This document shows positions 6,563 to 11,938 of a DNA stretch of 64,000 nucleotides, piece by piece. The notes beneath the pieces were generated by a model. It was not told the DNA's origin and did not search any database. It saw only the letters and a program-made list of their open reading frames with translations. Every line of letters begins with the position of its first letter. The stretch's first letter is position 1. Source of the stretch: Chryseobacterium sp. JJR-5R (GTDB taxonomy: Bacteria > Bacteroidota > Bacteroidia > Flavobacteriales > Weeksellaceae). Position numbers and translations under genes: made by a program. Location of the stretch: contig NZ_CP139137.1 in the NCBI RefSeq assembly GCF_034047335.1, positions 1 through 64,000 on the forward strand, in the 5' to 3' direction.

Positions 6563-6578
6563 TGTTTCACGTGAAACA
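6563..6578. promoter_or_regulatory. parS-type centromere site 1
   Basis: TGTTTCACGTGAAACA matches the bacterial parS consensus TGTTNCACGTGAAACA at every position. Flanking bases extend it to a 20-bp perfect palindrome (6561-6580). It lies 45 bp upstream of mnmG. ParB binding at such sites organises origin-proximal DNA for segregation. The match is direct; ParB binding is inferred. Confidence 0.88.
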
Positions 6579-8486: not shown

Positions 8487-8495
8487 TTAATAATA

Positions 8496-8511
8496 TGTTT
8501 CACGTGAAACA
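8496..8511. promoter_or_regulatory. parS-type centromere site 2
   Basis: A second exact match to TGTTNCACGTGAAACA, again with T at the variable position, 9 bp after the mnmG stop. It is part of an 18-bp perfect palindrome (8495-8512). The two sites are 1.9 kb apart. Confidence 0.88.
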
Positions 8512-8536
8512 TTAAAAATATTTTTAAAAATTATTT

Positions 8537-8577
8537 AAAATTTGAAGTTTACAAAAGCTTCAAATTTTATTTTTAAT
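8537..8577 (+). terminator. mnmG terminator
   Basis: An 11-bp stem (AAAATTTGAAG at 8537-8547 and CTTCAAATTTT at 8558-8568) with a 10-nt loop is followed by ATTTTTAAT. It ends just before the methyltransferase gene, so mnmG is probably monocistronic. Confidence 0.7.
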
Positions 8578-8588
8578 AATTATATACA

Positions 8589-9746: not shown

Positions 9747-10937
9747 TTATTTATTGATTGCGGCAACGCCGGGCAGTTCCAGTCCTTCCAGGCTTTCAAG
9801 CATTGCTCCCCCGCCGGTAGAAACATAACTCACTTTGTCATCATACCCGAACTGTTTTACAAAAGCCACACTGTCTCCCCCTCCTACTAAAGAAAAAGCG
9901 CCCAGCTTTGTAGCTTCAGCAATACTGTCACCTAATGCAACCGTTCCTGCAGCAAAATTCGACATTTCAAAAACCCCGATCGGGCCATTCCAAAGAATGG
10001 TTCTTGAATTTAAAAGGATATCATTGAACTGATCTCTGGACTTCGGACCTGCATCCATGCCCATCCATCCTTCCGGGATTGTATAAATATCCGATTCTTT
10101 TCTTTCTGCATCATTACTGAAATGCTCAGCGATGATTACATCAGAAGGCAGATATACCTTTACATTATTTTCTTTTGCTTTTCCTAAAATCTCAAGAGCC
10201 AGAGATAATTTATCTTCCTCCACCAGTGAAGTCCCGATTTTTCCGCCAAGCGCCTTGATAAAAGTAAAAGCCATTCCTCCGCCGATGATTAAATTATCTA
10301 CAGCCGGAAGTATATTTTCTATAATGGTAATTTTAGTTGAAACTTTAGATCCACCTAAAATAGCCGTTACAGGTTTTTCACCGCTTTTCAGAACCTTATC
10401 AATGGCCTCTAATTCATCAGCCATTAATAAACCGAAAAACTTAGTCGATGGAAAAAATTCAGCAATTACAGCTGTTGAAGCATGTGCTCTGTGTGCTGTA
10501 CCAAAAGCATCATTTACATAAGTATTAGCAAGTTGTGAAAGCTTTTCAGCAAAATCCCGGTCACCTTTCTCCTCTTCATTATGAAAACGCAGATTCTCCA
10601 GCAATAAAATTTCTCCCGGTTGAAGATCGGCAGCAGCCTGTACAGCTTTCTCTCCTACACAGTCTTCAACGAATTTCACTTCTGTCCCCAAAACTTTGGA
10701 AACCTCGTCTGTAATATGCTTGAGAGAGAACTCATCCTTTACTTCGCCCTTAGGTCTTCCCAGATGCGCCATCAGGATAACGGAACCTCCGTCTTTAAGA
10801 ATTTTATCTACGGTAGGCTTTACCGCAGTTATTCTTGTGTTGTCTGCAACTTTCAGCTGGTCGTCCTGCGGAACATTGAAATCTACTCTTACCAGAGCCT
10901 TCTTACCATTAAAATTGAAATCATTGATTGTTTTCAT
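9747..10937 (-). CDS. pgk: Phosphoglycerate kinase
   Basis: Glycolytic enzyme interconverting 1,3-bisphosphoglycerate + ADP and 3-phosphoglycerate + ATP. The N-terminal substrate motif [10 protein letters not shown], the HLGRPKG block, the nucleotide-binding GGSKVSTK and the C-terminal STGGGAMLE loop are all present. The length of 396 aa is standard. It is the only minus-strand gene between tdk and tsaB and has its own terminator. Upstream is the 566-bp candidate origin. Confidence 0.97.
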
Positions 10938-11388
10938 AAATAACCCAGAATTTTCTTTTCACAAATGTAAGATTTTAAAAATTTGGAAATGCTCCGGCCC
11001 ATTAAAAGTTTTCAGAAAAGTTTTTAAGAATGTTCTCCGCAAGCCCAACATCCACTAACCAACAATTTTTTCTTTATATAAAAAAATAATACGCTAGTGT
11101 TGTTGTGTGTTGTGAGTTTAGGGGATAACTTTTGTATAAAATCTTTATAACATGAAATTTCTGATCAATTCACAATTTATTTACAATATAATCTGCTGAA
11201 AATCTGATTTTTCAGGTACTTACTAACAATTATTAGTAACTTTTCCCCAATTTCGATTATGGATAACTGATTTCCGGAAAAACCGGTGACTTCGTGCAAA
11301 AAAGTTTTGCGAAGTTTATCGCTGATTTTTTGACTGTCCTTTCCATTACATATTTTTATAATAGTACGAAACATTTATTTTACCGGAG

Positions 11389-11407
11389 TTATCCACAGTT
11401 ATTCACA
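11389..11407 (+). promoter_or_regulatory. Pair of DnaA boxes
   Basis: TTATCCACA and TTATTCACA in the same orientation, separated by one base. Both fit TTATNCACA exactly. Confidence 0.6.
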
Positions 11408-11458
11408 TTGCTGTTCACAATTTACTCCCGAACGACTAACAGACTTTGTTATTATTCT

Positions 11459-11466
11459 TACCTTTG
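11459..11466 (+). promoter_or_regulatory. -7 box of the rpiB promoter
   Basis: TACCTTTG fits the Bacteroidota -7 consensus TAnnTTTG and lies 37 bp before the rpiB start. No good -33 TTG is visible at the expected distance. Confidence 0.45.
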
Positions 11467-11503
11467 TCCGGAAATACATCTAAAAAAGTTTAATACAGGT
11501 ATT

Positions 11504-11938
11504 ATGAAAAGAAAAATCGCTATTGCCGCAGACCATGCAGGGTTTGAATATAAAGAGATTGTTAAGAACTATTTATCAGAAAACTTTGAGGTTCAGGATT
11601 TTGGAACGTTTTCCACAGACAGTGTGGATTATCCTGACTTTGTGCACCCTGCTGCAGCTTCCGTTGAAAACGGAGAAAACGAACTCGGTATCTTAATATG
11701 CGGAAGCGGAAACGGAGTTCAGATCACGGCAAACAAGCATCAGAAAATCCGTTGCGCGCTTTGCTGGATGCCGGAGATTGCAGCATTGGCAAGACAGCAT
11801 AACAATGCCAATATGATTTCCATCCCGGCAAGGTTCATATCTAAGGAAGTGGCTATTGAAATTGCAGATAAATTCCTTTCAACAGATTTTGAGGGCGGAA
11901 GGCACCAGAACAGAGTAGATAAAATTGCATTTTGCTAA
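11504..11938 (+). CDS. rpiB: Ribose-5-phosphate isomerase B
   Basis: Interconverts ribose 5-phosphate and ribulose 5-phosphate in the pentose phosphate pathway. The start IAIAADHAGFEYK and the block ILICGSGNGVQITANK, containing the active-site loop, are diagnostic of the RpiB/LacA family; Asn/Ser variants of the classical catalytic Cys exist in the family and here the position reads S-G-N-G. The length is 144 aa. The frame is open 70 codons further upstream, but that would run through the DnaA boxes and promoter; the ATG at 11504 fits the family start. Confidence 0.93.
   Translation: MKRKIAIAADHAGFEYKEIVKNYLSENFEVQDFGTFSTDSVDYPDFVHPAAASVENGENELGILICGSGNGVQITANKHQKIRCALCWMPEIAALARQHNNANMISIPARFISKEVAIEIADKFLSTDFEGGRHQNRVDKIAFC

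Follow-up and report, generated by a model that had tools for sequence, protein, structure and literature searches.

Does the stretch between pgk and rpiB contain the replication origin of this Chryseobacterium chromosome, in which dnaA lies far away at 1,456,608 (1.456 Mb)? The question arose from a prediction that placed a candidate oriC in this intergenic region on the strength of DnaA boxes and a nearby parS site, within the window studied here, i.e., the 64-kb stretch covering positions 1–64000 of the 4,212,178-bp (4.21-Mb) chromosome. As that prediction described, the 566-bp gap is AT-rich (69.8% AT) and without an evident gene; it is bounded by pgk (9747–10937, minus strand) and rpiB (start 11504, plus strand), and an Rfam search of the gap returned zero known RNA families. 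Among named relatives, the top match to this rpiB is 98% identical. We conclude, with a probability of roughly 94%, that the region is the single chromosomal oriC of this Chryseobacterium, an origin not adjacent to dnaA. The candidate is supported by a skew switch, by genus-wide conservation of a box array and by a family-wide fixed spacing.

The first of these was obtained from 59 stretches of 20 kb sampled across the chromosome together with the window. A two-arm fit located the minus-to-plus GC-skew switch at contig 0–20 kb; the reverse change falls at ~2.16 Mb of the 4.21 Mb, half a chromosome from the origin switch. When the candidate was taken as the fixed origin, 0 of 2000 permutations fitted as well. 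In two complete relatives whose contigs are numbered differently, the switch fell at this locus too (p ~1e-4 for each by half-chromosome permutation); a switch lying elsewhere had been named in the original prediction as grounds for abandoning it, and none was found in the three genomes tested. Among other positions fitted as the origin, the dnaA neighborhood gave a poor skew fit (a TTWTNCACA box is also lacking from the 3.5 kb surrounding that gene), and both parAB (1.095 Mb) and a tandem-box site at 305.6 kb fitted clearly worse than the candidate. A second broad basin near 3.4–3.5 Mb fitted only slightly worse (SSE 1690 vs 1613). Over 144 kb, cumulative skew reaches its local minimum at position 597, which is 11 kb away from the boxes, and the resolution attainable from skew by itself is accordingly ~20 kb at best; the switch was not visible in AT skew, in gene-strand bias or in keto skew. 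The deposited contig starts ~11 kb from oriC, and in a single-contig relative (G166) the match to the left module described below is at contig position 87.

Within the gap, the case rests on a cluster of DnaA boxes, because single TTWTNCACA boxes are no commoner in the window than chance (9 observed vs 8.65 expected). Of the two adjacent boxes originally called perfect, TTATCCACA (11389–11397, plus strand) is so, with no other exact box of the E. coli type anywhere in the 64-kb window, whereas TTATTCACA (11399–11407, plus strand) matches TTWTNCACA and differs from TTATCCACA at one position. In our alignment of 89 distinct genus intergenic sequences, these sites are kept with ≤1 mismatch in 99 and 91%, respectively. 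A third box of this right array, CTGTTCACA (11411–11419, plus strand; genus CTTTTCACA, ≤2 mismatches in 99% of the 89), was not listed in the earlier description, nor was the left half of the region with its probable unwinding element; the triple array at 11389–11419 is genuine. The array boxes share one strand and are 10 and 12 bp apart, i.e., roughly one helical turn. Same-strand pairs of TTWTNCACA boxes within 12 bp of each other are found at two places genome-wide (here and at 305.6 kb), and the five sites with ≤1 mismatch per 500 bp are the maximum of the window; across the 89 sequences, each intergenic region holds a mean of 10.2 near-boxes (≤1 mismatch) vs 2.4 in shuffled sequence. The one-mismatch box originally listed as third (TTATCCATA, 11258, minus strand) is present, but it is conserved in just 6 of the 89 genus sequences and is for that reason probably not functional. 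Within the rpiB coding sequence, TTTTCCACA and an inverted TAATCCACA lie at window positions 11609–11631, and the rpiB genes of relatives contain similar boxes; these could reflect codon constraint or additional DnaA sites.

The oriC region is present in all 35 genus genomes compared, and the gap is conserved beyond the level of neighboring intergenic regions. The original prediction gave the whole of 10938–11503 as the candidate: the locus holds, but the full span does not, as the last ~70 bp resemble an rpiB promoter. The core origin—a left unwinding module, middle boxes and the right DnaA-box array, with no strand assigned—extends over ~11047–11420, and this core is kept in 35/35 genus genomes. 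In some relatives, rpiB is ~2.2 kb off, and there the block generally still adjoins pgk and ends just past the box array (in one of these, L219, the strict TTWTNCACA pair is not retained). Since this block, through to the right array, generally stays by pgk where rpiB is displaced, the rpiB promoter lies outside the origin. The Bacteroidota promoter −7 consensus is TAnnTTTG. The probable rpiB −7 element, TACCTTTG (11459–11466, plus strand), is conserved where rpiB is adjacent, and no such element followed the boxes in the sequences examined from rpiB-displaced relatives; the probable pgk −7 element, TACATTTG (10962–10969, minus strand), is near-invariant in the alignment. In L218, L219, L220, and L144, ~1.6 kb separates oriC from rpiB, and the insert in L218 encodes a 524-aa protein.

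Four elements make up the left core module (11047–11134, plus strand): a weak DnaA-like box, an AT-rich tract, a set of TTGT repeats and the invariant GGGGATAA. The weak DnaA-like site (11056–11064, plus strand) has the genus consensus TAATCAACA in the 89-sequence alignment. The AT tract (11061–11095, no strand), a probable DNA unwinding element, is the weakest helix of the region as a mean over the 89 sequences and ranks at the 99.8th percentile of the 64-kb window among 30-bp stretches. The TTGT repeats (TGTTGTTGTGTGTTGT, 11098–11113, plus strand) are, by their likeness to E. coli, a candidate single-strand DnaA contact, and the TGTTGTT within them is invariant across 19 aligned genus sequences. 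The module's left DnaA-box-like site, TTATCCCCT (11120–11128, minus strand; invariant TTATCCCC/GGGGATAA), departs in Chryseobacterium from a DnaA box at two positions, with TTATCCCC kept in 89/89 sequences. The predicted AT-rich unwinding element thus located at 11061–11095 adjoins this DnaA-box-like site at 11120. The middle DnaA-like sites are TTATTTACA (11177–11185, plus strand), TTACTAACA (11220–11228, plus strand; genus TTATTAACA), a minus-strand site at 11231–11239 (genus TTATCAACA) and TTTTCCGGA (11273–11281, minus strand; genus TTTTCCATA); the third of these is kept with ≤2 mismatches to TTWTNCACA in 97% of the sequences and the others in 89/89.

The left AT tract at 11061–11095 is, on balance, probably the site of unwinding. 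It is a credible, if less favored, possibility that the origin is correctly placed and that it unwinds instead in an AT-rich stretch between boxes (11160–11195, 11260–11280, or 11350–11375), as the weakest 30 bp in a single species is often at 11160–11180 or 11260–11280; averaged over the 89 sequences, however, the left tract is the weakest, and it is to this tract that the family-wide sequence conservation belongs.

That conservation was followed with a model built from the sequence of the left half alone (11047–11134) and searched in the strain's own genome, where it has one match, and in other genera. From 14 other genera of the family, 22 loci were fetched: pgk directly adjoins all 22, and rpiB is on the other side in 17. 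In 20 of these 22 non-genus loci, a plus-strand box of the form TTWTN(C/A)ACA lies 264–270 bp right of the left site (16 of the 20 fit strict TTWTNCACA), where chance would place one with a probability of 0.0024 per locus, a figure to be read knowing that the 22 loci share ancestry and hence are not independent trials. The remaining loci, L243 and L258, have no box at the fixed distance. A spacing of ~267 bp is kept in most examined loci while much of the sequence has changed. In four loci (L247, L248, L250, and L253) the left site is a perfect DnaA box, TGTGGATAA, and since this box occupies the same position, the Chryseobacterium GGGGATAA is its homologue. One speculative reading, which we hold only tentatively and think rather unlikely as a whole, is that the family origin is a rigid module with a fixed-length bridge, in which the Chryseobacterium GGGGATAA would contact DnaA, or else a second factor, in a way that has changed yet is under strict constraint. 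A minus-strand DnaA box lies ~140–152 bp right of the right-hand box in L241, L242, L246, L251, L252, L253, and L255, and L243 has one at a comparable place, though the right box itself is missing there; Chryseobacterium is without this extra box right of the array. Upstream of pgk in six genomes from other families of the order, we found no box cluster and one isolated TTTTTCACA (L213), so by that test the arrangement does not extend to other families. When the model was searched order-wide, its matches outside the family were weak (E 1e-4 or worse) and none of those fetched was beside pgk, and we therefore read them as chance.

The reported parS 2.9 kb away is confirmed as a perfect TGTTTCACGTGAAACA at 8496–8511, and a second perfect parS is at 6563–6578 (neither assigned a strand); even allowing ≤1 mismatch, these two are the only ones genome-wide, 2.9 and 4.8 kb from the origin. 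The coincidence of both parS sites and the skew switch with this locus counts against a very improbable reading, in which the region is not an origin but a DnaA-binding regulatory or titration site (datA/DARS-like, or one controlling pgk and rpiB). The promoters of both flanking genes inside the gap would suit such a site, as would the conserved DnaA-box pairs that these genomes carry at other places, such as upstream of parA, but the array keeps company with the AT tract where rpiB is displaced by ~2.2 kb, and the left module is without a second match anywhere in the genome. Just as improbable is an origin in another gap within ~20 kb, e.g., beside mnmG as in E. coli, where the limited skew resolution, the minimum at 597 and an AT-rich parS-bearing gap adjoining mnmG (8487–8588, among the window's weakest helices) are outweighed by the absence of box clusters elsewhere in the window and in the adjoining 60 kb on the left and by the much lower conservation of those other gaps.

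The pair upstream of parA consists of inverted perfect DnaA boxes (TTATCCACA and TGTGGATAA, separated by 12 nt) at C1:1095174–1095203 (L277:438–467), 110 bp from the gene. Inverted pairs with a 6–18 nt spacer occur in 59/59 Chryseobacterium genomes (reversed-pattern control, 0), and parA is just downstream in 15 of 16 loci with a 12–13 nt spacer, which suggests DnaA control of parAB; the literature searched yielded nothing on DnaA boxes in a parAB promoter. A second inverted pair, its boxes 6 nt apart (TTATCCACATTTTTTTGTGGATAA, for example), occurs in many genus genomes (L278, L280, L282, L283, L285, L290, L293, L299, and L302, at position 1501). Its gene context varies among the three inspected, and it may serve to titrate or reactivate DnaA.

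With the pgk–rpiB region as the origin, a conceptual model of its firing can be proposed. DnaA, encoded 1.45 Mb away, would bind the right array (11389, 11399, and 11411) and the weaker middle sites, from which an oligomer may span to the left site at 11120; this site points at the AT tract (11061–11095), which would melt. The TTGT-rich strand (11098–11113) would then be held by DnaA—that the strand held is the TTGT-bearing one is a guess by analogy—and helicase would be loaded, with ParB at the two parS sites moving new origins apart. The position and layout of the origin are computed; the DnaA-binding, unwinding, and helicase steps are inferred.

In this group, origins are not findable by looking beside dnaA. 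The sequence-only profile, always beside pgk, provides a convenient reference point from which Weeksellaceae genomes can be numbered, and it is usable for metagenome replication-rate estimates and the construction of replicating vectors. From the near-constant 267-bp spacing follows a simple prediction on the assembly of the DnaA complex, one that lends itself to testing.

The literature searched yielded no Bacteroidota origin that had been mapped experimentally. An origin far from dnaA is itself of an already known kind: in Elizabethkingia meningoseptica, a relative in the same family, the Ori-Finder-predicted origin is likewise far from dnaA and has the same general content (PMC8994065). That account, in the parts concerned with the origin, is a single-genome prediction in which flanking genes, comparative alignment, fixed spacing and a left module do not feature (PMC8994065). 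What is new here is the family-wide fixed spacing with its pgk anchor, of which we found no description in the limited literature searched. The tandem DnaA boxes resemble the Bacillus-type basal unwinding system of DnaA-box plus DnaA-trios (PMC8287927), but next to neither the right array nor the left box was a clearly conserved run of trios seen. With a conserved run of ≥3 DnaA-trios no further than 16 bp from a DnaA box as the criterion, the window has only a 3-trio run, by a loose rule; runs of ≥4 follow the weak 11056 site in 55/89 sequences, although T-rich sequence yields many by chance. In E. coli, DnaA requires TTGT and TTATT in the unwinding element (PMC5742627), and the conserved TTGT at 11098–11113 beside the left site may correspond to such an E. 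coli-type ssDUE motif. Like E. coli oriC, the Chryseobacterium origin has an AT-rich element at one edge, TTGT-type motifs, an adjacent first DnaA box and further boxes in both orientations; it differs in its neighbor genes, in its degenerate left box and in the placement of its TTGT repeats between the AT tract and that box (PMC5742627).
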